From: a virus
DNA length: 49,374 nucleotides
Strand: one strand, 5' to 3'
Virus record (IMG/VR): IMGVR_UViG_3300046520_000116
Location: 1-49,374 of that record
Shown: positions 21,636 through 38,998 of the stretch, piece after piece
How positions within the stretch are numbered: position 1 is the first letter of the stretch
Layout: each line of letters begins with the position of its first letter
Made by a program: the position numbers and the translations under genes
Notes under the pieces: model-generated
What the model was told of the DNA's origin: nothing
The model's input: only the letters and a program-made list of their open reading frames with translations
The model's database searches: none

Positions 21636-22619
21636 TCAAACGATGGTTGATGGCTCGACTTTTTGACCGATCATCGCGTCAGAAACAAAGACGTACCGAG
21701 ACCCTGGCGGAGTGTTAGCGTGCTCGCCTTTGTAAAAACGGGCATCACGCAACTGCCGGAAGTGCCACGACCGGTAGTGCGCGTCTGGTGACGCCTTAGC
21801 TGCCGCTGTAGCAACGCTCTGGAGCGTGCTGAGGCGCATTCCGCCAGATCCGTCGTGTCCCATAAGCCTTGGCATAACCGAGCCAGGGAAGCCATCCAGG
21901 AGTCGTTTGCCGCCCGTTGCCAGGCAGTAGATGCCCATCGAGGCCACGAGTTTGAGTGCAAAGAACTGGATCTCTGCGTCGGCAGAATTGGTCTCGACAG
22001 TCGAAACCCCGACCATGGGCCAGCCGCCATCCATCTCGAGTTTGTATTCGTCCAGGTTCCTGCACTTCAAGATACGAGGAAGATCCTTTTCACGAATGCT
22101 GACCATTGCATGTGCGCCGTCAGATGGGTTTTTGTACTGGACGACAAGCGATTTGACAGAGTCAGGCACGCTTGAAAAGTCGAGGGTATGAAGCGGCATT
22201 TTTATGTAATCGATGAACGGCATGGCCTTGATTTCTGGTAAGTCGTCCCTCGAAAACGATGCCATGAAACCTGGCATCTTGAAGCCATTGCGGGTGTAGC
22301 CGCTGGGCATTGCGACAACGAACGACGTGAAGGGGAGGCTGAATCCTTCAGGGCTCTCGATTTCGTACCTGGCCCTCATCAAGTTGTCGATCACGTCTGT
22401 GCTTTCCGGGAAGATCACGTGACGTCCATTTCGCGACCAGAAGTGGTCTTCGATGCAGATCCTGGTGGCCAGGGTGTTGAATTTCGAGTTGTGCTCGTAA
22501 AGCCATTGGCCAAGCGCAAGATGCGGAGCCAGGCCCTTGTGAAATTTCGACACGGCCTTCAGCGTTTCTGTCAGAAGGGAAGGGTACATGTCGTATGCTG
22601 GCTTTTTGGTCTGCTTCAT
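21636..22619 (-). CDS. Replication-linked hypothetical protein
   Basis: A 327-residue protein translationally coupled to rep (4-base overlap at 22616-22619). It has no recognised domain. The sequence is mixed alpha/beta. The C-terminus contains HYRSWHFRQLRDARFY, then GSRYVFVSDAMIG, a basic-aromatic ending that recurs in phage and plasmid proteins of unknown role. Its position in the rep operon suggests an accessory function in plasmid replication or copy control. Confidence 0.68.
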   Translation of the reverse strand: MKQTKKPAYDMYPSLLTETLKAVSKFHKGLAPHLALGQWLYEHNSKFNTLATRICIEDHFWSRNGRHVIFPESTDVIDNLMRARYEIESPEGFSLPFTSFVVAMPSGYTRNGFKMPGFMASFSRDDLPEIKAMPFIDYIKMPLHTLDFSSVPDSVKSLVVQYKNPSDGAHAMVSIREKDLPRILKCRNLDEYKLEMDGGWPMVGVSTVETNSADAEIQFFALKLVASMGIYCLATGGKRLLDGFPGSVMPRLMGHDGSGGMRLSTLQSVATAAAKASPDAHYRSWHFRQLRDARFYKGEHANTPPGSRYVFVSDAMIGQKVEPSTIV

Positions 22620-23521
22620 ACGTCTAGCTCGCTTTGTTTGCGCTGAATCCTGGCCAGTGCTTCCTGGTATGACTCGCCAGGTCTCGCCAGTTTCGATAAC
22701 TCGTAGTCACTGAATGTCTTTGGGCTGCCCGTCTTAGACATGACCTTTTTAGGGTCAATCGCCTTCCTTGGCGCCTTCGGCTTCTGCTCTTTGGTTTGCT
22801 CTGTTGGCTCTATAGGCAACTGGCTTTGGACTGGCTTCGGCCCGAACGCGAAGCGTATGTGGGTCGTCTTCCGACCGGTCTTCTGGAACTCGTAGGAAAC
22901 GTTCAGGTGCGAATGCTCGTTGATCTGCTCAATCGAAGGCTCAATCACTTTTCGCCTCAGATCCGCCAAGAGCTTGTACTTGTCACCCAGTACGAATGCA
23001 TCACGGAGGAAATCGATCTCGATGATCCTGTGTCCAATCGACTTCCATTGCGCGATCATCTCGAACATCCGGATGGCATATGAGCTTGTCATCGCCGCCA
23101 CGTCGCGGAGGGCGTACCTGGTGAACTGCTCAGTCAAATCGTTGAGGTATGGAACCATGTCGGTGTTGAACCGCAGAGTTACACGCCCCTCGTCTTTGAG
23201 GTAGTTGATCGTCTGAACCCACCTGGTTCCTTTTTGGTGATCGAACGACCCCTCGCCATTGGGTTTCTCGTTGATCCATATCTCTCGCCGCCAGAGCCTC
23301 GCAGACGCCTTCTCCAGCTCTTTGTACATCGCATTGCTGGCTGTGCCGGTCAGATCGACCAGATCGCTCACAGAGACGCTGTACTCAATCTGATCCGTGA
23401 GCTTTTCGCCAATCTTGACCTGAGAGATGCAGATCAGCATGATCCTTTGCTCAAGCACCGAGAGCTTGTACGATGCCTCGATTAGGGCATTGGACTTTGT
23501 GACATTGCCCTCTTGCTTCAT
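22616..23521 (-). CDS. repB: Rep_3-family plasmid replication initiator
   Basis: A 301-residue initiator with the Rep_3 (RepB) signature: KSNALIEASYKLSVLEQRIMLICISQ at the N-terminus, then YSVSVSDLV, and a second winged-helix domain with RYALRDVAAMTSSYAIRMFEMIAQWKS and FLRDAF. Its length suits the family, with an extra basic C-terminal tail (about residues 235-301). GGAG lies 8 bases before the start. The iterons at 23567-23840 lie directly upstream, the usual arrangement in which the initiator binds the origin and represses its own promoter. This is the main evidence that the phage can live as a plasmid. Confidence 0.9.
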   Translation of the reverse strand: MKQEGNVTKSNALIEASYKLSVLEQRIMLICISQVKIGEKLTDQIEYSVSVSDLVDLTGTASNAMYKELEKASARLWRREIWINEKPNGEGSFDHQKGTRWVQTINYLKDEGRVTLRFNTDMVPYLNDLTEQFTRYALRDVAAMTSSYAIRMFEMIAQWKSIGHRIIEIDFLRDAFVLGDKYKLLADLRRKVIEPSIEQINEHSHLNVSYEFQKTGRKTTHIRFAFGPKPVQSQLPIEPTEQTKEQKPKAPRKAIDPKKVMSKTGSPKTFSDYELSKLARPGESYQEALARIQRKQSELDV

Positions 23522-23566: not shown

Positions 23567-23840
23567 ACCCTAAAAAAGACCACATTTCAACCTAAATTTG
23601 ACCACATTGAGCCCTAATTTTGACCACACCCCACCCTAAAAAAGACCACATTTGGACGCTGGAGGTCGCGTGGGCCGTGGGCTGCAGACGACCTAAAAGC
23701 TTTTAAAAAGAAAAATATATAAAACAATCTTATGGACTGGGGTGAAAAAGGCTGTTGATAACCATGATTCTTCGGCAGTTGACCCTAAATCTGACCACAT
23801 TCATGACCGCTGCAGATCCAACCCTAAATTTGTCCACATT
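23567..23840. other. Iteron replication origin (oriV)
   Basis: Six 20-bp direct iterons of consensus ACCCTAAATTTGACCACATT lie at 23567, 23589, 23611, 23633, 23782 and 23821. The first four repeat every 22 bases, two helical turns. Between the groups is an AT-rich stretch (23693-23735) with AAAAGCTTTT that can melt easily. TTATCAACA (reverse of 23752-23760) matches the DnaA box with one mismatch. The whole lies upstream of rep in the arrangement typical of Rep_3 origins. Confidence 0.88.
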
Positions 23841-23862
23841 TAGAATTTGCCATGATAGGATC

Positions 23863-30289: not shown

Positions 30290-30868
30290 ATGCGTGTAAT
30301 CCAATACAACTCTCGCCGTGCAAAGCCCTGGCAGATCGCGGCCCGTGAGAAGATGGTCGAGCTGAGAATCACCCAGGTCGAGATGGCTGAAAAGCTCGGC
30401 GTCACCCAGGGTTGCATAGGTCACTGGCTAAATGACACCAGGAAGCCAAATATCGATCAGATCAACGCAATCCTCAAGGAGTGCCACATCCCGCAGTTCC
30501 TGGTGTATCCAGTCGTTGATCTGGAGGTGGAGGTGGCTCAGCGGCTTCCCCTGATCTCCTGGAGCTCGATACCCAAGCCTGGCCAGCGAGTACGCCTGCA
30601 TTCGATCCAGGAATCGATCATAAGCCCCTTCCAGGCCTCAGATGCCTCGTTTTGCCTGCAGTCAGCCGGCGACGGCACCTACAGGGAAAAAGAGATCCTG
30701 CTTGTAGATCCAAATGCAGATCCAGCCCCTGGCGACGATGTAATCGTCGAAGGTCATGGCCTATGCCGTTTTGACGGAGGCTTCATGGAAACCGACAAAG
30801 GCGCCAAAGTGCCACTTGCCCATGGCATTATTGGTGTAATAGTCGGCACCTGGATGAAGCGCAGATAG
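30290..30868 (+). CDS. CI-like repressor with degenerate S24 domain
   Basis: A 192-residue repressor. Residues about 15-70 form an HTH (ELRITQVEMAEKLGVTQGCIGHWLNDTRKPN). The C-terminal part (about 110-190) follows the LexA/CI dimerisation fold: SDASFCLQSAGDG...ILLVDPNADPAPGDDVIVEG...GIIGVIVGTW. The catalytic Ser of the usual GDSM motif is replaced (GDGT), and the Lys region (usually near VKRL) reads LCRFDG, so RecA-stimulated self-cleavage is not expected. Induction would need another route. It is followed by a strong terminator. Confidence 0.82.
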   Translation: MRVIQYNSRRAKPWQIAAREKMVELRITQVEMAEKLGVTQGCIGHWLNDTRKPNIDQINAILKECHIPQFLVYPVVDLEVEVAQRLPLISWSSIPKPGQRVRLHSIQESIISPFQASDASFCLQSAGDGTYREKEILLVDPNADPAPGDDVIVEGHGLCRFDGGFMETDKGAKVPLAHGIIGVIVGTWMKRR

Positions 30869-30891: not shown

Positions 30892-30915
30892 AGCCCGCCC
30901 TGTGCGGGCTTTTTT
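30892..30915 (+). terminator. Terminator of CI-like gene
   Basis: AGCCCGC (30892-30898), loop CCTGT, GCGGGCT (30904-30910), then TTTTTG. Confidence 0.85.
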
Positions 30916-30927
30916 GCGTCCAAACAT

Positions 30928-30966
30928 TTGACATATATTGACAGTCAGCTATACGCCCCGTATTCT
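30928..30966 (+). promoter_or_regulatory. Promoter of ssb leader RNA
   Basis: TTGACA (30938-30943), a 17-base spacer and TATTCT (30961-30966) form a near-consensus promoter. A second TTGACA 10 bases upstream with TATACG 16 bases on overlaps it. Transcription would begin near 30973. Confidence 0.65.
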
Positions 30967-30972
30967 CGACTT

Positions 30973-31187
30973 GCTGCTGTTGTTAGTGATGGAAAGCTGA
31001 GGAACCGCGTGCGTTCGGGAGAGCTTGCAGGGTCAGCGTTCGGAGCCAGCCTCCGTGAATGGCGTCCTTAGCCAGAGCGCCTGTGGAGTCAATAAGCGGC
31101 ACAGCCCCTCCCATTCGTGGCATTAGCTGGTGGGCTCGCCAGTGGGGCTTCAGAGAGCATGACGGCCCGGAAAGACGGGCAATCCAA
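30973..31187 (+). ncRNA. Structured leader/ncRNA 'A' upstream of ssb
   Basis: About 215 non-coding bases between the promoter and a small gene. Stems seen: AAGCT/AGCTT (31003-31025 region) enclosing CCG/CGG, CGGAG/CTCCG (31041-31055), AGCCCC/GGGGCT (31103-31149) enclosing TGGC/GCCA, and GCCCG/CGGGC (31165-31180). It shares GAGAGCTTGC (31019), CCGTGAATGG (31053) and ATTAGCTGGTGG (31122), in that order, with region B at 35.6-36.0 kb. It could be a regulatory leader, a free ncRNA or a DNA element active when single-stranded. Confidence 0.55.
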
Positions 31188-31205
31188 AACATTTATTAGA
31201 GGCGA

Positions 31206-31370
31206 ATGACAAAAATGCAGAATCGTTACCAGGCCCATCAGGCCTCCCCAGACTTTTTTCACATCGTCGACAGCGCCACTCTCAAGTGCGTCGGCTTCGC
31301 TGCCTCCGTGCGTTCTGCCCTGGACAAGATTCGTATCCTGGAGCGGACGTTAGAGCGCAAGCGCCGCTAG
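31206..31370 (+). CDS. Small gene upstream of ssb
   Basis: A 54-residue frame, MTKMQNRYQAHQASPDFFHIVD..., with a basic C-terminus (LERTLERKRR). AGAGG at 31198-31202 serves the ATG at 31206 or the one at 31215. It lies between the structured leader and ssb, in the same direction, and is probably co-transcribed with ssb. No family recognised. Confidence 0.55.
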   Translation: MTKMQNRYQAHQASPDFFHIVDSATLKCVGFAASVRSALDKIRILERTLERKRR

Positions 31371-31411
31371 GCGCACACTCCTGCTTTTATATCTATATTG
31401 AGTATCTACCT

Positions 31412-31834
31412 ATGCTTTCAAATCTTGGCCGCGTCGGTCGTGACGCGGAATTGCGCACTACCGCATCCGGTGTTTCTGTTTTTACTGTTCCTGTCGCGTA
31501 TGAATATGGGGTCAAACTGGAAGACGGCAAGCGCCCGACCCAATGGGTTGACTTGACGTTCTGGGCAAAACAAGCTGAAACCTTCGCTCCTCTGCTCAAG
31601 TCCGGGCAGCAAATCTTTTTCAGTGCTGACGACGTTCACGTCGAAACCTTCGTCGGCAAAGACCAATCCACGAAATATAAGCTCGCTGGCCGTGCTGCTA
31701 CCGTCAAATTGGCTGGTGGCAATGGCAAGGGTGAATCCACCCCAGAGCAGTCTCAGCAGGGCACCAGTGGCCCAGATCAGTCGCCGCTTCAAGACGACGA
31801 CATACCGTTCGCGCCGGTTCATTATCTGGCCTGA
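31412..31834 (+). CDS. ssb: Single-stranded DNA-binding protein
   Basis: A 140-residue OB-fold SSB: MLSNLGRVGRDAELRTTASGVSVFTVPVAYEY, then WVDLTFWAKQAETFAPLLKSGQQIFFSADDVHVETF. A Gln/Ser-rich linker leads to a DDDIPF near the end, the acidic tip that binds replication partners, but here followed by seven more residues (APVHYLA), an unusual extension. It starts at ATG 31412 with a weak RBS, so translation may depend on the upstream small gene or leader. It serves phage or plasmid replication and, if transferred by conjugation, entry as a single strand. Confidence 0.88.
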   Translation: MLSNLGRVGRDAELRTTASGVSVFTVPVAYEYGVKLEDGKRPTQWVDLTFWAKQAETFAPLLKSGQQIFFSADDVHVETFVGKDQSTKYKLAGRAATVKLAGGNGKGESTPEQSQQGTSGPDQSPLQDDDIPFAPVHYLA

Positions 31835-31900
31835 GAACAATCCCTGCTGATTCCGGTGGGGGCCGAGGCTCCCACCTTATATATGTGTGAGCCTATATTT

Positions 31901-32245
31901 ATGCTTGTGACGAACGAATGTTCTCTTAAAGATTCTGCTCGTGCTCAGATTGACTGCTCCATCCAAAACTTCCTCAGCTCCGGTGGCTCGATCAAAACCT
32001 TCGACTCCGGTGTCCTTGCTAGCCATCTTGCTGAGCCGCCGCCTGAAAAGAAAGTCGTCAAGCGCTCATCCGCTACACCCTACAACCCAACAGCTACAGC
32101 AAAGGCCGAGGCGACCATGCGCCTGGTGAAAAAGGGCGCTGCCGCAGGTCTGTCTAACGCAAAAATTGCTGAGATGGCCGGCGTGACGAAAAATTACGTC
32201 AGTTACCTGGTATCTAAAAACAAACTCCGTGAGCCGCAAGAATAA
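31901..32245 (+). CDS. HTH-containing hypothetical protein
   Basis: A 114-residue protein. The last 45 residues form a helix-turn-helix (GLSNAKIAEMAGVTKNYVSYLVSKNKL), so DNA binding is likely. The N-terminus (ARAQIDCSIQNFLSSGGSIKTF) resembles starts of small Pseudomonas phage proteins. I chose ATG 31901 (GAG about 9 bases upstream); GTG 31856 and ATG 31883 are alternatives. The stop overlaps the next start. Confidence 0.66.
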   Translation: MLVTNECSLKDSARAQIDCSIQNFLSSGGSIKTFDSGVLASHLAEPPPEKKVVKRSSATPYNPTATAKAEATMRLVKKGAAAGLSNAKIAEMAGVTKNYVSYLVSKNKLREPQE

Positions 32246-32532
32246 TGTCCTTTTCAATCTATGCCGTCCTGGGCGGCGAAAACCTCATTAAAGGCACGCG
32301 CCCAGCTAAGGCGTGCCATTGGGACGTATCGGTGCACTTCGTTATGCTCGATGGCACCAAGCACCTGCACAGCTTTTCCATCGATGAAGCGTGGTCTAAA
32401 GAGGTCTCGCCGCTGATCTGTGGCCGCGTCGAAGCATTGCGTGATGAGCACGGTTACGAAGTCCGCAAGGCCGGCTGGACAGCCCATGCCAGGGGCCCTA
32501 AGGCCGCTCAAAAGAAGAAGAGAAAAAAGTAA
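32245..32532 (+). CDS. Small basic hypothetical protein
   Basis: A 95-residue protein coupled to the previous gene by TAATG. It is mixed alpha/beta with a very basic end (GPKAAQKKKRKK). Possibly nucleic-acid-binding through that tail. No family recognised. It is the last gene before the partition promoter. Confidence 0.62.
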   Translation: MSFSIYAVLGGENLIKGTRPAKACHWDVSVHFVMLDGTKHLHSFSIDEAWSKEVSPLICGRVEALRDEHGYEVRKAGWTAHARGPKAAQKKKRKK

Positions 32533-32552
32533 TAAAATTATTACATAGAGTA

Positions 32553-32631
32553 TTGACAGGTAGTGGATCCGTGCTAATCTAATATTAATCGGATGTCAGA
32601 AGTCCGAAATAATAAATCCGATATCGGATAA
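32553..32631 (+). promoter_or_regulatory. par promoter and upstream partition site
   Basis: TTGACA (32553-32558), a 16-base spacer and TAATCT (32575-32580) form the parA promoter. Directly downstream lie ATCGGATGTC (32588), AGTCCGAAAT (32601) and the perfect 14-bp palindrome ATCCGATATCGGAT (32616-32629). These fit an operator bound by the small ParB, possibly also serving as centromere. Confidence 0.65.
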
Positions 32632-32649
32632 TCGACCAAGGTAGATAAG

Positions 32650-33321
32650 ATGAAAACGACTAAGAAACGCATGAAGGTCATCATTGTTGGTTGCAACAAA
32701 GGTGGCACCGCCAAGACCACTTCGGCCACTGGCCTGGCTGTTGTGCTGGCCCAGAAGGGTAACAAGGTGTACCTGCTCGACGCAGACAAGCAGAACTCTG
32801 CGAGCAACTGGGCCGCTGAGCGTGAACGCATCGAAGCTAAACCCGTCATCACCGTATCGTCTCGCCGTGGCGCAATCGCCGGGCACATCAAATCGATTTC
32901 TGATGACTACGACTACTGCATCGTCGACGTGTCGGGCAGCATCAGCCCTGAGCTTGTGAGCGCCCTGCCAGTCGCAGACCTTCTGGTGGCACCGTACAAA
33001 TGCTCTCAGTACGACTTGGATACGCTGACCGAGCTGGAAACCCAGGTGAACTTCATCAAGGACTCAACTGGTTACGCGCCGGACGTTCTTATCTATCACA
33101 CCATGGCATCAACGAACCATGTGATCCGTGGTCGTGAGCGGGCTAGCTTTGAAGCCTGCGCTTCTGAATTCCCAACGTTCAAACTGATGAAGTCGGTCAA
33201 CAGCCATCGCCAGGCTTTTATCGATACCGCCGAGAACGGATTAGCTGTAACTGAAATGACCAATGCCAAGGCCAAAAAAGAGCTCCTGGCGTTTGCTGAG
33301 GAGGTACTGACTCATGGTTAA
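32650..33321 (+). CDS. parA: ParA-type partition ATPase
   Basis: A 223-residue ParA without an N-terminal HTH, i.e. the short type Ib form. The deviant Walker A is KGGTAKTT (residues 17-24) with signature Lys17; YCIVDVSG (about residue 92) is Walker A' (D for catalysis) and the later strand LLVAPYKCSQYDL follows. AAGG lies 9 bases before the start. It would position plasmid copies along the nucleoid with the small ParB encoded next. It overlaps that gene by 8 bases. Confidence 0.9.
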   Translation: MKTTKKRMKVIIVGCNKGGTAKTTSATGLAVVLAQKGNKVYLLDADKQNSASNWAAERERIEAKPVITVSSRRGAIAGHIKSISDDYDYCIVDVSGSISPELVSALPVADLLVAPYKCSQYDLDTLTELETQVNFIKDSTGYAPDVLIYHTMASTNHVIRGRERASFEACASEFPTFKLMKSVNSHRQAFIDTAENGLAVTEMTNAKAKKELLAFAEEVLTHG

Positions 33322-33598
33322 GTCGCGTAGTGTTCGCAAGGCCGAGATGACTGAAGCTGAACAGGCGAAGCTGATCGCCGCAGTCACTGAGGATCGCCCT
33401 TATGGTGCGCCTATCAGTGACAAGCCCGAACCTGAGGCGCCGAAGGCAGACCCACTGACGAAGATCAGCGTCAGTCTCCGCGAAAGCGACTCTTGGAAGA
33501 TCCAGGACATCGTTGATAAGAACAAGCGCTCCAAGAAAGGGCCGAAGTCGATCAGCGCTGTGATCCTGGAGGCTCTGAGGGCCCAAGGCGTCATCTAA
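33314..33598 (+). CDS. parB: Small ParB-like centromere-binding protein
   Basis: A 94-residue protein directly after parA, as in type Ib partition systems. The N-terminus is flexible and charged, the place where the arginine finger that stimulates ParA is found in ParG-like proteins. The C-terminal half (LTKISVSLRESDSWKIQDIVDK...GPKSISAVILEALRA) reads as a ribbon-helix-helix DNA-binding fold. Likely targets are the ATCCGATATCGGAT palindromes on both sides of the operon. Naming it parB is by position and fold, not close homology. Confidence 0.75.
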   Translation: MVKSRSVRKAEMTEAEQAKLIAAVTEDRPYGAPISDKPEPEAPKADPLTKISVSLRESDSWKIQDIVDKNKRSKKGPKSISAVILEALRAQGVI

Positions 33599-33651
33599 CG
33601 CCGGCTTTGACACCAAACCCCTGTGCCTGGACGGACGGGGGTTGTTTCATT

Positions 33652-33761
33652 CTGATATCCGAACTCAGAACTCCTACATCGGAAAGATTAATCCCGAATA
33701 GGGAAGTATTACATCGGATATCTACATTCATCTTTCGTACATCGGAAATCCGATATCGGAT
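33652..33761. promoter_or_regulatory. Downstream partition-site cluster
   Basis: GATATCCGA (33654-33662), three TACATCGGA half-sites (near 33675, 33710 and 33739) and the perfect palindrome ATCCGATATCGGAT (33748-33761) fill the gap after parB. The palindrome is identical to that before parA. This is the best candidate for parS. Confidence 0.65.
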
Positions 33762-34105
33762 TAGACCTTTGCGTGATTGAGAAGCTCTGCGAAATCCATC
33801 TGCTCTATCTGATCCTCGGGGCCGTCATCGATCTCAGCGATGATCTGCGCAAGCAGTGCCTTAAGTGCTGCCCTCCCTTCCAGGCTTCCAGATCTATCGC
33901 GCAGAATCTTTGCCCTGACCATTTCCTGCAGCCATCCAACAAGGCATGGATCTACAGGGTTAACGCCGGTCGCCCAGCGGCTTATCGTCTCCGGCGCTGT
34001 CGATTTGCCATCATCCCTGAGCGCCGTAACCATTCTGGCCAGGTCTACGCCAGTAAGCCCCAGGTACTTCATAGCTCGTCTCATCTTGGCTGCGTTATCT
34101 GTCAT
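33761..34105 (-). CDS. HTH-type regulator-like protein
   Basis: A 114-residue protein. The first 60 residues (AMKYLGLTGVDLARMVTALRDDGKSTAPETISRWATGVNPVDP) look like an XRE-type helix-turn-helix with a long turn. The C-terminus is helical and acidic. It is convergent with the par operon, and its stop codon lies in the last partition palindrome. Possible transcription regulator of plasmid genes. RBS weak. Confidence 0.66.
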   Translation of the reverse strand: MTDNAAKMRRAMKYLGLTGVDLARMVTALRDDGKSTAPETISRWATGVNPVDPCLVGWLQEMVRAKILRDRSGSLEGRAALKALLAQIIAEIDDGPEDQIEQMDFAELLNHAKV

Positions 34106-34237
34106 GGTTGGCTCTAAGTCATGGTTTGTGATACTTACCTTAGCCGTGGATCAATCGGTTGTCCACTGGTCTGGATGCAGAGCAAGCTGAGCGCCACATC
34201 TCTATATTGCCCACCTTTTTCCTTGGGGGGAATTGGC

Positions 34238-34432
34238 GTGGTACAGAGACTTGAGATGATCAAGGATGGCGCGAGCCGGCTGCAAACGGACTACGAGTTC
34301 ACTGAAGGGGAGGCGATTGAGCTTGCCGCCATCGAAGCCGGCTATGAGTCCTTTGCGGAGGTCGTTGGCCTAGTCGAAGGCTCGAACAGCATGACTATTT
34401 TCCTTCCTGGCCAACCTCAAGCTGTTTTGTGA
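34238..34432 (+). CDS. Small hypothetical protein
   Basis: A 64-residue acidic protein with a GTG start (34238) placed 7 bases after GGGGGG. The sequence VVQRLEMIKDGASRLQTDYEFTEGEAIELAAIE is helical. The longer frame from 34121 has no RBS and reads through likely non-coding DNA. No family recognised. Confidence 0.5.
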   Translation: MVQRLEMIKDGASRLQTDYEFTEGEAIELAAIEAGYESFAEVVGLVEGSNSMTIFLPGQPQAVL

Positions 34433-34591
34433 TCAAAAATGCTTCCAGGGTGAAAACTGCCCAAATGTTGGCCTCGTGTGAGGCGTTTCCTCTGGTTCTT
34501 TGAGTCGATGGTAGGGTCTTGGGGTTGCGAGGCCTGTAGAGGCTCTCAGGAGCTCTGGGGAGGGGATGGCATCCGTGCCATGGTAAATCCG
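34433..34591. other. Non-coding gap with two hairpins
   Basis: No gene fits. GCCTC-GTGT-GAGGC (about 34480-34494) and TGGCA-TCCG-TGCCA (34569-34582) are compact stems between convergent genes. No T-runs follow, so terminator function is uncertain. Confidence 0.4.
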
Positions 34592-34882
34592 TTACGACGG
34601 CTCAAATCCCAGTTCAGTGAGCCGCTGGATTGATCGAATCCTTCGGCGTTCGAGGCTGTCGAGGATGGCCGGGCTGTCGAAGCAGGCCGCAATTGCAATT
34701 CTCTCCAGCAGGTCTCGAAATGCCATGATCTGCTTTCGCTCCGCTACGTCGACTTCGATGTGACCGTGTTGATCTCTCCTGGATTGAAGCTTTTGAATCC
34801 TAGCTTCGATCCAGTCGTCCATTTGTTTGACAGTGATCGATCCAATGTCAACACCACGGTTCTTTAGTTCGTCACGCACCAT
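34592..34882 (-). CDS. Hypothetical helical protein
   Basis: A 96-residue, strongly helical and charged protein (MDDWIEARIQKLQSRRDQ; ERRRIRSIQRLTELGF). ATG at 34882 has AAAGGG about 8 bases upstream. It is the third gene of a short - strand run (35442 to 34592). No family recognised. A coiled-coil role is plausible. Confidence 0.62.
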   Translation of the reverse strand: MVRDELKNRGVDIGSITVKQMDDWIEARIQKLQSRRDQHGHIEVDVAERKQIMAFRDLLERIAIAACFDSPAILDSLERRRIRSIQRLTELGFEPS

Positions 34883-34948
34883 TGCTTTAGCCCTTTGCGG
34901 TTGGTGTACATCCAGTCTGCATGTGGAGCAATGGTTGGATCCAATCTT

Positions 34949-35206
34949 TTAGGCCCTGCAAATTCTCTTCATGCTTTCGCTTTCGCGTTCGGTGACCAGT
35001 GAGTTGCATGGCAAGCTCATTGAGACCCAGATCCGATCCATGACCTTCTGGGCGACCTTGAGCTCCTCCAGCTCGATCTGGTTGCCGTCGAACTGTTCTC
35101 CGTAGGGTAGGGCCGCCTGGTACGACTCCAGCGCATTGATGCGGCTCTGAGTCCAGTCGATGGCGGTCTTGAGGTGGATCGGTTTGTGCAGTCGTGCAAT
35201 GGACAT
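34949..35206 (-). CDS. Hypothetical small protein
   Basis: An 85-residue helical protein starting MSIARLHKPIHLKTAIDW. ATG at 35206 has GGAG 6 bases upstream and overlaps the preceding gene's stop (TAATG), which rules out the longer frame to 35269. Its layout (paired helices around ALESYQAALPYGEQFDGNQIELEELKVAQKVMD) is similar in style to the next gene, suggesting a common small family. Function unknown. Confidence 0.64.
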   Translation of the reverse strand: MSIARLHKPIHLKTAIDWTQSRINALESYQAALPYGEQFDGNQIELEELKVAQKVMDRIWVSMSLPCNSLVTERESESMKRICRA

Positions 35207-35442
35207 TATTCGCTCCGGTTGGCTTTGAGCCACTTGTTGATGATTTCGAGCTCCCTGTCGCTGAGCCACATCGTGCGTGGGCGGATTCCCAGCTCAGCCT
35301 GGCGCTCTTTATAGGCTCGCTGCTTGGCGCTCCCTGAGAGCTTCTGAGGGCCTTTGGATGGGCGTCCCAGCTTTGGTTTGACAGTTTCAGGAAATTCGGT
35401 AGAGATTATGTCAAGGGTCAAGGTATCATGTGCGTCTTTCAT
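35206..35442 (-). CDS. Small basic, probably DNA-binding protein
   Basis: A 78-residue basic protein. GRPSKGPQKLSGSAKQRAYKERQAELGIRPRTMWLSDRELEIINKWLK resembles small plasmid and phage regulators with a K-x-R-A-Y-K-E-R motif. The LSDRELEIINKWL segment could be the helix of a ribbon-helix-helix unit. GGAGG stands 9 bases before the ATG. It is the first gene of a three-gene - strand operon. Confidence 0.64.
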   Translation of the reverse strand: MKDAHDTLTLDIISTEFPETVKPKLGRPSKGPQKLSGSAKQRAYKERQAELGIRPRTMWLSDRELEIINKWLKANRSE

Positions 35443-35611
35443 TCCGTGGCCTCCAGGGCATTTTGATCATTTTGGTTTATGCTGACCAATCATGTCAATA
35501 CTAGGCTTACGTCTATCACCTTATGCAAAACCCCAGTGTATCCAGCGGTTTCCGGCAATTCATTGAAATTGTTTTGGAAATCTGTTGCGTGTCTATCTGT
35601 ATTATTGATAA

Positions 35612-36030
35612 ATTGACACAGTGAGCGAGAGCTTGCCGGTGGATGCGTCGGTGGTAGGGTAAGTGACGACGGGGCGCATCAAACCGTGAATGGGGATACC
35701 GGGGAAGCAGACAAAAACTCCAAGATTGGGCCGTAATGAGTGGTCGGAAGGCAATGTACAGTGCAGTTATGTTGGGGAAACCCTCGACTGCGTGGGTGTC
35801 TTCTGGCGGCATGGAACGGCGTCTGGCGCTGCGGTGCGGCGTAATCCATGCAGTGGCGGGGGCACCTCCTGACGCCATCCGGGGAATCCCATCGACGGCT
35901 CGGGCCAGCGCATGAGATCACCGGTTACTCACTAAGAGCCAATAGACCGATTAGCTGGTGGTCTGGAGGTTCTTGGTGAGTAATGACCGAAGAAAACCCT
36001 CAACTCTCAAACCTGCGTAAGGGTTTTGAC
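35612..36030 (+). ncRNA. Structured ncRNA 'B'
   Basis: About 420 bases without a convincing gene. CCGGTG (35636-35641) pairs with CACCGG (35919-35924), closing a large domain that starts with GATGCG/CGCATC (35642-35680). Immediately after it comes a long hairpin: TTACTCAC (35925-35932), AAGAGCC (35934-35940), AGACC (35944-35948), loop, GGTCT (35960-35964), GGTTCTT (35968-35974), GTGAGTAA (35976-35983). It ends with AAAACCCT/AGGGTTTT (35993-36026). Three motifs are shared in order with region A (GAGAGCTTGC at 35627, CCGTGAATGG at 35684, ATTAGCTGGTGG at 35950). A possible extended -10 (TGTATTATT) lies at 35598. Confidence 0.6.
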
Positions 36031-36235
36031 AGTAGCAGGCAAGCTTTTAAATGATTTGTTTCTGCACCAAAGCGCTTCCGAGCTGACAGACTCAGATGGT
36101 TAAAGCTTAAAGGCATCAAGCAAAATCAAAAACAGAAACATTAAACTGTCAAGTAAAATGTGTGATAGCGACAGCTCCCTGGTAAAATGATTTTAGGTGG
36201 CCAAGATAGGCCATACAAAATAATAAGGGGGCGGT
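36031..36235. other. AT-rich non-coding leader
   Basis: No gene is visible. The stretch is AT-rich, unlike the GC-richer RNA B before it. TGGCC-AAGATA-GGCCA (36197-36212) is a small hairpin just before the RBS of the gene at 36236. AAGCTTTTAA and TTAAAGCTT occur as a loose inverted pair. Confidence 0.4.
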
Positions 36236-37159: not shown

Positions 37160-37340
37160 TGGCGAGTGGTATACAAAATGATGTGAGGGGCGGTAAATCC
37201 AGTGCTATACAAGAAACAAGTTATGTCAGTGGTATACACTGACCTTGTTCAATCTGGCGATATTCTGTTGCTCACCCCCTTGTGGGGGTTGCGCTATGTT
37301 TTGCTCCGCAGGCAATCTGTTTATATGCAGTGAGGACTGC
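37160..37340. other. Candidate origin of transfer (oriT)
   Basis: Non-coding DNA just upstream of mobC and the relaxase gene. It holds three AGTGGTATACA-type sites (37165, 37201 with one change, 37228); the last is centred in a perfect inverted repeat GTCAGTG/CACTGAC (37225-37243). A second hairpin, ACCCCC-TTGT-GGGGGT, lies at 37274-37289. Inverted repeats next to mobC are the usual oriT layout. The nick site cannot be named from sequence alone. Some of the repeats may instead be MobC operators. Confidence 0.5.
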
Positions 37341-37365
37341 TGGAAAACAAGACAGAGAAAAAGCC

Positions 37366-37749
37366 ATGAACGACCAAGTGACCACCGAAGAAACCACCGA
37401 AGCAAAACCTAAGAAGAAGTCCAAGCGGGAAGACAAGAGCATCAACGTTCGCCTCGACGCCGCCGAGCGGGCCGCCATTGACGCCCTGGTCAAGTCCACA
37501 GGATACCCTTCTGCAGCCGCCCTGATCCGGGACGTGCTGTGCAAAAAGCAGTTCAAGACCAAGGTAATTCTTAACCCCGACATCAATGAAATCGGAACTT
37601 ACCTGGCCCAGCTTTTTGATTTGATCCCAACTAGCAAAAACTTCGTGCCACTTCAGCAGAAGATAGTGGAGACGATCAAGTATATATATAAGGATCTGGA
37701 TGATGTTAAGTTAGACGATAGCGAAGAAGGAGAAGGTTATGATTGGTAA
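37366..37749 (+). CDS. mobC: MobC-like accessory mobilization protein
   Basis: A 127-residue protein. A Lys-rich start leads to SINVRLDAAERAAIDALVKSTGYPSAAALIRDVLCKK, which reads as a ribbon-helix-helix DNA-binding fold. MobC-type proteins bind oriT and help the relaxase open it. The start is ATG 37366; the frame extending to 37282 runs into the oriT region. It overlaps the relaxase gene by 11 bases, so they are translated together. Confidence 0.72.
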   Translation: MNDQVTTEETTEAKPKKKSKREDKSINVRLDAAERAAIDALVKSTGYPSAAALIRDVLCKKQFKTKVILNPDINEIGTYLAQLFDLIPTSKNFVPLQQKIVETIKYIYKDLDDVKLDDSEEGEGYDW

Positions 37750-38998
37750 AAAGCTGAAAGCATCTAAGGGATCTGCCAGGAACCGCCTTCGTTATATCTA
37801 TGGCAGCAAGAAACATGATCACGACATTGTAAAGATCAGAACTGTTTACACTAACTGTGCAGGATTTAATCCAGAAGTTGGAATAAGTAATGGCAGTGAG
37901 GCCGATCTAGAGGCAATGATTAGGGATATGGATGTCCCAACTAAGCTGAAACTTGGCGCAGAAGGAAAAAGGAAAGGTGATTTGCGCCCAATTGCTCATT
38001 GGATTATCTCTCTAGCTGATGGTGAGAAACTTACAGATGAGCAATGGAACTTCGCTGTTAAGTTCTGGCTTAAAGAAATGGGATTCAAGCCAACTAATAA
38101 AGCAACAGCAGCAGTACATGAAGACACTGATAACGAACATGCTCACCTGGCCATCAACAGAATATGTAACGAGCCAGGGTTTGAAGTAATAAGTGACAAG
38201 GATGATTTCCAGAAAAACATGGAGGCCATCTGGAAGTTGGAAAAGCATTTTGGTCTCAAAATGGCTGCAAGGCCAGAAAATACATGGAACCCGACAGTTA
38301 ATGCACGAACTGTTCTCGGCGCTCAAAATGCTGGAACAATGCCCTACGAGACTCGTTTGGCTGCAAAAATTGGTGGCTGCGTTAAGAATACGAAGAAAAG
38401 AGATGGTGACATGCTCATGTTTGTGCGATCTCTTCGCCGCCAAGGTGTTTATGTGCACCTGAGATACGAACTTAACGGCGCCCCGAAAGGCATTACTTAT
38501 GAGTTCGAAGATCGTTTCATGTCTGGTAGCGAACTGAAGAAGGCCAGGTGCACATGGCAAAAACTGACAGGACAAGAAGGCATCCGTTATGACCAAAGCA
38601 TGCTTCCACAGCTTAAAATTGAGCTTTCAAAACGAAATAGAAAGGGTGACGAGCAGCCTGTCTTCGGAAAAAACGGAGCAAGATACTACTCAAACCGGGG
38701 CTGGATCTACATGTACTTCGTCCCGGAAAACACCTCCAGAGCCCCCTTTATCAAACTCAAGGTAAAGAATACAGGCAAAAGCGGTGACCAAGTCAGGGCG
38801 GAGATTGCTTACCGTCAGGCCATGGAGTTAGTTGAGATGATCATGAAACTTCTGGAGTTGATCTTTGGTGGCGTTCGTTATACCGCTAAACCAGGCAACG
38901 CCAAAGGCGACGGGTACACCGAATGGAATCCAGGTGAAGACTTTCCTATTTTCCATCCTGACGAACCTCAGCGTCAAAAGGCCCTGGAACTGGCCTAA
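37739..38998 (+). CDS. mobA: Relaxase, MOBP-type mobilization protein
   Basis: A 419-residue relaxase. Motif III, HEDTDNEHAHLAINRI (residues 127-142), supplies the HxD...HxH histidines. Tyr residues in RYIYGSKKH (about 18-26) are candidates for the nicking Tyr of motif I. A central HWIISLADGEKLTDEQW strand also fits MobA/VirD2-type enzymes. It is short and lacks a C-terminal helicase or primase domain. GAAGGAG precedes the start. It would nick oriT and lead the strand through another element's transfer apparatus, since no type IV secretion or coupling genes are visible. AT-rich codon use differs from the virion genes. Confidence 0.88.
   Translation: MIGKKLKASKGSARNRLRYIYGSKKHDHDIVKIRTVYTNCAGFNPEVGISNGSEADLEAMIRDMDVPTKLKLGAEGKRKGDLRPIAHWIISLADGEKLTDEQWNFAVKFWLKEMGFKPTNKATAAVHEDTDNEHAHLAINRICNEPGFEVISDKDDFQKNMEAIWKLEKHFGLKMAARPENTWNPTVNARTVLGAQNAGTMPYETRLAAKIGGCVKNTKKRDGDMLMFVRSLRRQGVYVHLRYELNGAPKGITYEFEDRFMSGSELKKARCTWQKLTGQEGIRYDQSMLPQLKIELSKRNRKGDEQPVFGKNGARYYSNRGWIYMYFVPENTSRAPFIKLKVKNTGKSGDQVRAEIAYRQAMELVEMIMKLLELIFGGVRYTAKPGNAKGDGYTEWNPGEDFPIFHPDEPQRQKALELA

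Follow-up and report, generated by a model that had tools for sequence, protein, structure and literature searches.

The DNA analysed here (the window) is the complete IMG/VR virus record IMGVR_UViG_3300046520_000116, 49,374 bases long, and it contains two gene-free regions that we call A and B. Region A, which lies between a phage repressor gene and the operon of the single-strand DNA-binding protein (SSB), ends in a 22-nt hairpin belonging to a class, UGACA-[5 bp]-GAAAGA-[5 bp]-A, that recurs in at least 110 distinct phage loci, mostly on uncultured contigs, and in E. coli prophages. We give about even chances to a reading in which this hairpin is an undescribed RNA signal of tailed phages from several bacterial phyla, and perhaps of haloarchaeal viruses, which a conserved host factor reads as a universal sign of where untranslated RNA gives way to the next transfer RNA (tRNA) or cistron, and in which region B is the founding member of a second family of large RNAs in phage-plasmids, unrelated to the first.

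A search with the ParA protein of the window found one related contig, L003 (ParA 78% identical), which has the same gene order with both intergenic regions in place, and this one relative stands behind all pair comparisons of A and B. Two hairpins of A are convincing by eye in the alignment with L003, CUGGUG-GGCU-CGCCAG against CGGACG-GGCC-CGUCCG and GCCCG-GAAAGA-CGGGC against GUCCG-GAAAGA-CGGAC. The second is the most telling feature of A, and was overlooked in a preliminary description of this DNA that had concentrated on words shared between A and B. A two-box pattern conserved in A matched L003 and one haloarchaeal-virus contig, while the minimal pattern TGACNNNCCGGAAAGACGG matched at least 120 stretches in viral contigs, from which come the 110 or more distinct loci, among the matches listed, that underlie the figures for the class.

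Conservation, covariation, a fixed geometry, a bias to the sense strand and a recurrent position are all seen for the hairpin in these loci. Among the 110 distinct matches listed the two outer stem pairs form in 106 and 105, with GC, CG, AT and TA all represented, an A follows UGAC in 97 and an A follows the stem in 80. In the 56 distinct sequences on which we built a covariance model of the hairpin (R1), 93.6% of cells are paired, 55 cells show double changes against 16 in shuffles (0/500 reach the observed number), G-T (G-U) pairs are tolerated in the stem and the covariation score is 0.548, where slid partners reach 0.082 at most. As the search pattern fixes the two inner pairs in most rows but not the two outer ones, the covariation evidence rests on the outer pairs and on an unselected set; in the same loci 40 more GGAAAGAC hairpins lie outside the pattern, 30 of them with UGAC upstream, and six scrambled loops gave 1-3 matches, none with UGAC. 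The spacing UGAC-N5-GGAAAGAC occurs 166 times and any other spacing at most 5 times. The window hairpin has this exact spacing and pairing flanks, and is matched by R1 at 37.6 bits (E 3.3e-10); this copy is one of the 56 rows of the model, yet both the hairpin and its class were discovered through the L003 alignment. Most genomes checked carry one copy and some Stenotrophomonas phages carry four.

The layout around A is lambdoid, with a CI/LexA-like repressor on the + strand and a small helix-turn-helix (Cro-like) open reading frame (ORF), an O-like replication initiator and DnaB on the - strand, and A follows the repressor directly, in the position of PL in lambda. The operon runs in the order repressor gene, terminator, promoter, A RNA, small ORF, SSB:

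30290-30868, + strand: CI/LexA-like phage repressor gene upstream of A (PHROG transcriptional repressor; L003 homologue 55% identical)
30893-30915, + strand: the repressor gene's intrinsic terminator, GCCCGCCCTGTGCGGGC followed by TTTTTT, kept in L003
30938-30966, + strand: predicted PL-equivalent promoter TTGACA-17-TATTCT (consensus scan; L003 keeps the -35 region and the spacing)
30973-31205, + strand: region A, predicted 5' leader RNA of the operon with SSB and ParA (lies after the promoter and before the start codon; no conserved ORF; synteny with L003)
31103-31108 with 31144-31149, + strand: outer stem AGCCCC/GGGGCU enclosing the hairpin at 31127-31142
31127-31142, + strand: hairpin CUGGUG-GGCU-CGCCAG, CGGACG-GGCC-CGUCCG in L003 (pair alignment read directly, and folds)
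31160-31181, + strand: the widespread hairpin UGACG-GCCCG-GAAAGA-CGGGC-A at the 3' end of A (model R1, covariation, fixed geometry)
31206-31370, + strand: small ORF of 54 aa immediately 3' of A (PHROG 6742; searched from the second codon)
31412-31834, + strand: SSB gene (85% identical in L003)

Transcription of A is expected to start near 30973, and judged from this arrangement A is the untranslated leader of an early PL-type operon of a lambdoid phage-plasmid. As a whole A folds no better than its shuffles (z +1.09), and its pair alignment with L003 gives a weaker overall signal than that of B (z -2.1; 4/100 controls reach its number of double changes). The absence of genes from A and B, as described earlier, is borne out by L003, where no ORF within them is convincingly conserved (the best is a 14-residue match), unlike the adjoining small ORF and SSB; both regions thus look non-coding, and we rejected a coding function for either.

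Gene calls in uncultured contigs are heuristic. Long ORFs near the hairpin agree with its strand by 68:22 upstream and 71:21 downstream among the loci listed. ARAGORN found 31 tRNAs in 1.04 Mb of hairpin loci; 30/31 share the strand of the motif, nearly all lie within 1 kb of a hairpin and six begin only 1-7 nt after it. The strand bias, the covariation with G-U pairs and the position make it very likely that the hairpin acts as an RNA signal. Were it to act as DNA instead, recognised perhaps in single-stranded form during replication, recombination or packaging, its usual single copy per phage would be readily understood; the strong coding-strand agreement, the placement beside ribosome-binding sites and tRNAs and the tolerance of G-T pairs in the stem nevertheless make such a role highly improbable.

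A Shine-Dalgarno sequence with an ORF start follows the hairpin within 120 nt in 40 of the 112 listed loci, in half of these at 17-32 nt, and in the window 24 nt separate the 3' A of the hairpin from the ATG. In the Stenotrophomonas phage BUCT708 and two E. coli prophages the hairpin lies, as in the window, in a gene-free stretch of 500-1000 nt after the repressor gene and in the same direction, and repressor-like ORFs are the commonest family upstream of it in the larger set. Elsewhere it precedes genes of DNA metabolism (DNA polymerase, exonucleases, primosome) or small-terminase genes, and in phiEt88 it follows a Q-like antitermination gene. The short distance to the start codon, together with the frequency of DNA-metabolism genes downstream, might be taken to mean that a phage protein or a small ligand binds the hairpin beside the ribosome-binding site and so controls how the following gene is translated or how stable its mRNA is. 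We consider this rather unlikely, since the hairpin also stands directly before tRNAs, which are untranslated, and the genes downstream are diverse.

The common denominator of the hairpin sites is a boundary, with untranslated RNA before it and a tRNA or a ribosome-binding site just after. This position favours punctuation, in which a factor that many hosts have in common processes or protects the 5' end downstream, and we infer tentatively, at a little under even confidence, that the hairpin punctuates phage transcripts in this way. The factor, most likely an enzyme of RNA processing or an end-protecting protein, would read the UGACA flank and the GAAAGA loop, the upstream RNA (a leader, tRNA or small RNA) would be separated from the cistron or tRNA starting just downstream, and a hairpin-capped 5' end would be left close to the ribosome-binding site. 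Several observations weigh against punctuation. The tRNA association comes mostly from about 13 loci, the contexts are mixed and the hairpin is rare in cultured phages. In addition a few phages have a U run after the hairpin itself, which fits termination or antitermination equally, and terminators on the motif strand are enriched in the 500 nt downstream (15 and 8 per 250-nt bin against 2-4 upstream), an enrichment due in part to tRNA operons and related leaders, which end in terminators.

Those terminators bear on the main rival of punctuation, in which, by analogy, the hairpin or the leader would be an antitermination signal loading on RNA polymerase, either alone, as the HK022 put RNA does, or with a phage protein, as lambda nut boxB does, giving read-through in untranslated leaders and tRNA clusters. 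Strong motif-strand terminators do follow (in the leaders of BUCT708 and E. coli, for instance, they come behind the first hairpin copies), and the regions concerned are untranslated. HK022 putL lies just downstream of PL, and put is a cis RNA, made of hairpins, in the untranslated leader of this lambdoid phage (PMC9378689). Region A is alike in position, occupying the nutL/putL place in the leader of the PL operon directly after a PL-like promoter and within a lambdoid layout, but put RNA is about 70 nt with two long bulged stems, whereas the unit here is 22 nt and is found also beside tRNAs and late genes. A search of the HK022 record with R1, which covers the hairpin only and not the whole leader, gave no match at E 10. 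The lambda-type nut boxB belongs to an early leader and is a short hairpin of 5 bp whose loop is rich in purines and contains GA, and in stem, loop composition, size and site the hairpin here resembles it; the loop however is a GAAAGA hexaloop and not a GNRA-like pentaloop, there is a UGACA flank, and both are invariant across phages of different hosts, where pairs of N and boxB would be expected to vary among phages. No boxA (GCTCTTWA with at most 1 mismatch) was found on the + strand of 30960-31200. As antitermination moreover would not need a spacing of 1-7 nt to tRNAs, and the terminators near tRNA operons confound the enrichment, we regard it as possible but unlikely.

Structured phage leaders and hairpin signals are known as a kind, and it is the UGACA-GAAAGA class that appears to be new. 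RNAs of the DicF type from the dicBF operon of the Qin prophage are trans-acting small RNAs, and the paper on them describes no UGACA/GAAAGA hairpin, which sets them apart by description. Mycobacteriophage start-associated sequences are a conserved phage element just 5' of start codons, known from one mycobacteriophage cluster only, and by description differ from the hairpin in sequence. Searching the hairpin-bearing loci against Rfam 15 returned only tRNAs, one twister-P5 and one sRNA-Xcc1, none of them at the hairpin; the sRNA-Xcc1 and the type-P5 twister ribozyme are observations in their own right on two phage contigs (L040 10882-10970 and L048 14235-14299). A full-text literature search for the sequence or motif gave nothing relevant, although subscription papers were mostly outside its reach and an earlier description is possible; the class is apparently undescribed so far. 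Papers that matched the hairpin sequence did so in random inserts or primers, an entry in a table of P22 small RNAs was dropped as its matching strings belong to different RNAs, and a match at the 3' end of a single-stranded RNA phage (L132; E 8, broken stem) was treated as chance.

Membership of archaeal viruses in the class is doubtful and, on the sequences available, unproven, the stem being of only 3-4 bp in the haloarchaeal viruses L006 and L133, the first of which was itself picked by the pattern. Separately, the haloarchaeal-virus-like contig L006 holds at 2050-2180 a strongly folded RNA (z -3.1) that is closed by GUCA/UGAC, ends in CCGGAAAGACGG and stops 20 nt before an HNH endonuclease ORF. 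A helix immediately 5' of the hairpin is only weakly general, but L017, L018, L077, L100, L102 and L110 (likely also L023 and L107) share one of 8 bp, CAGNNNNN; its 3' strand comes after GUGA (or AUGA) and has the UG of UGACA as its last two bases, and these contigs form a larger two-helix subfamily. PL leaders with several hairpin copies occur at L128 1480-2100 and L137 3980-4300 and in L034, L040 and L109, and these also carry modules of the form GGAAAGACCAA-NGGGC-WUGACCA-GCCC, which resemble a rearrangement of the same two sequence blocks.

Region B is a separate structure, and its elements are as follows:

35615-36025, + strand: region B, a structured RNA in its own right, about 410 nt long (fold z, alignment fold and double changes against L003, shared architecture)
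35642-35680, + strand: 5' hairpin of B, GAUGCGUC...GGGGCGCAUC, with invariant GUCGGUGG and AGUGACGACGGGGC (L003 has GAUUGUC...GGGGCAAUC)
35922-35988, + strand: long 3' hairpin of B, its stem kept in L003 and its top, which carries ATTAGCTGGTGG, not conserved
36026-36055, + strand: promoter-like TTGACA-18-AATGAT just past B, within a stretch highly conserved with L003

B folds better than its shuffles (z -3.57), and RNAalifold on the pair of window and L003 gives 86 pairs with 20 double compensatory changes and none broken, where controls with columns shuffled within identity classes average 10.3 double changes (maximum 16; 0/100 reach 20), and an alignment fold energy of z -8.8. The two sequences share an architecture in which a multibranch domain lies in the centre, between a 5' hairpin carrying GUCGGUGG and AGUGACGACGGGGC and a long hairpin on the 3' side. 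On this comparative evidence B is a conserved non-coding RNA near mobilisation genes that is known from two genomes, and it appears to be a new RNA with these two members. It is alike to GOLLD, ROOL and other ornate large RNAs in being a large, heavily structured non-coding RNA of phages or mobile elements without an ORF, but it is shorter, has been found in two genomes so far and has no Rfam match even at E 10. The best conserved stretch near B, 35994-36060 (GAAGAAAACCCTCA..CTCTCAAACCTGCGTAAGG..GCAGGCAAGCTTTTAAATG), could form an H-type pseudoknot, pairing AAAACCCT/AGGGTTTT with CCTGC/GCAGG, that overlaps the promoter-like site at 36026.

Searches for further relatives returned little. ParA homologues were found only in L003, the core of B likewise only in L003 among viral contigs and nowhere among genome contigs, and a comparison of the DNA of A and B with collections of phages and plasmids gave chance matches only. 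Scans of viral contigs with two-motif patterns gave in one case a single match, inside a terminase gene and dismissed as chance, and in another none. That no named RNA family fits A or B, as the preliminary description supposed, agrees with Rfam 15, which gave no covariance-model match at the gathering score over the whole window and no meaningful match up to E 10 in the A and B region.

The preliminary description had further proposed that A and B are paralogues, on the strength of three words found in the same order in both, GAGAGCTTGC (31019-31028 in A and 35627-35636 in B), CCGTGAATGG (31053-31062 and 35684-35693) and ATTAGCTGGTGG (31122-31133 and 35950-35961). The words are indeed at these places, none of them has a third exact copy in the window, and for this one pair such a collinear triple is as rare as was claimed (0/3000 shuffles with three collinear matches of at least 10). 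The pair was however picked after reading the whole window, hence we applied a look-everywhere shuffle test over any two places, and there the rarity is lost: 15/120 dinucleotide-shuffled windows hold a collinear triple that equals or betters it in spans and total match length, with looser spans 52/60 do, and the real window itself holds four triples at least as good. The sharing is thus within chance. Moreover the L003 locus has none of the three words. Their counterparts in its A are GAGCGCTGC, CTGTGACGGT and ACAGTCGGACGG; its B is rewritten throughout the first hairpin and at the top of the last one, and only CGTGAAT is kept from the second word, and only in B, so that the arms carrying the words are the non-conserved parts of B. 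The conserved hairpin of A is unmatched in B, with no R1 match in 35600-36040, and ATTAGCTGGTGG, said to sit at the start of a hairpin loop in A, overlaps instead the 5' arm of the hairpin at 31127-31142 that co-varies with L003. Paralogy is therefore very doubtful despite the three exact, collinear words. Base-pair covariation in homologues, proposed at the time as a test, is on the other hand seen as compensatory changes, and the idea of structured RNAs holds for A and B each as a non-coding RNA on its own but not as one family; they are two different RNAs, apparently unrelated.

Outside these regions, the window has phage structural and terminase genes and, alongside them, genes for ParA, SSB, a Rep3 replication initiator and a relaxase of the MobA/VirD2 type, and on this gene content the genome is a phage-plasmid. 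The Rep3 gene (22616-23521, - strand) has iteron-like repeats upstream, CCTAAATTTGACCACATT, in four copies at 22-nt spacing and two more within 23568-23843, marking a probable plasmid origin. A MobC-like protein and the relaxase are encoded at 37282-38998, in a phage genome; the relaxase is at most about 29% identical to PLSDB plasmid relaxases and is found elsewhere only in L003 (among viral contigs only there, among genome contigs not at all). The phage-plasmid may thus be mobilisable too.

The case shows that exact repeats between two non-coding RNAs may be chance, with the real signal lying beside them. Region B adds a large structured RNA to a phage-plasmid with a relaxase. Known phage leader and hairpin signals (nut, put, tRNA processing sites) stem from few model phages, and an invariant loop and flank in constant geometry on the transcribed strand, in more than 100 mostly uncultured phage contigs and in E. 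coli prophages, would imply a reader common to most hosts. If this is true, the hairpin would be a searchable landmark of transcript ends in phage genomes for which there are no expression data.

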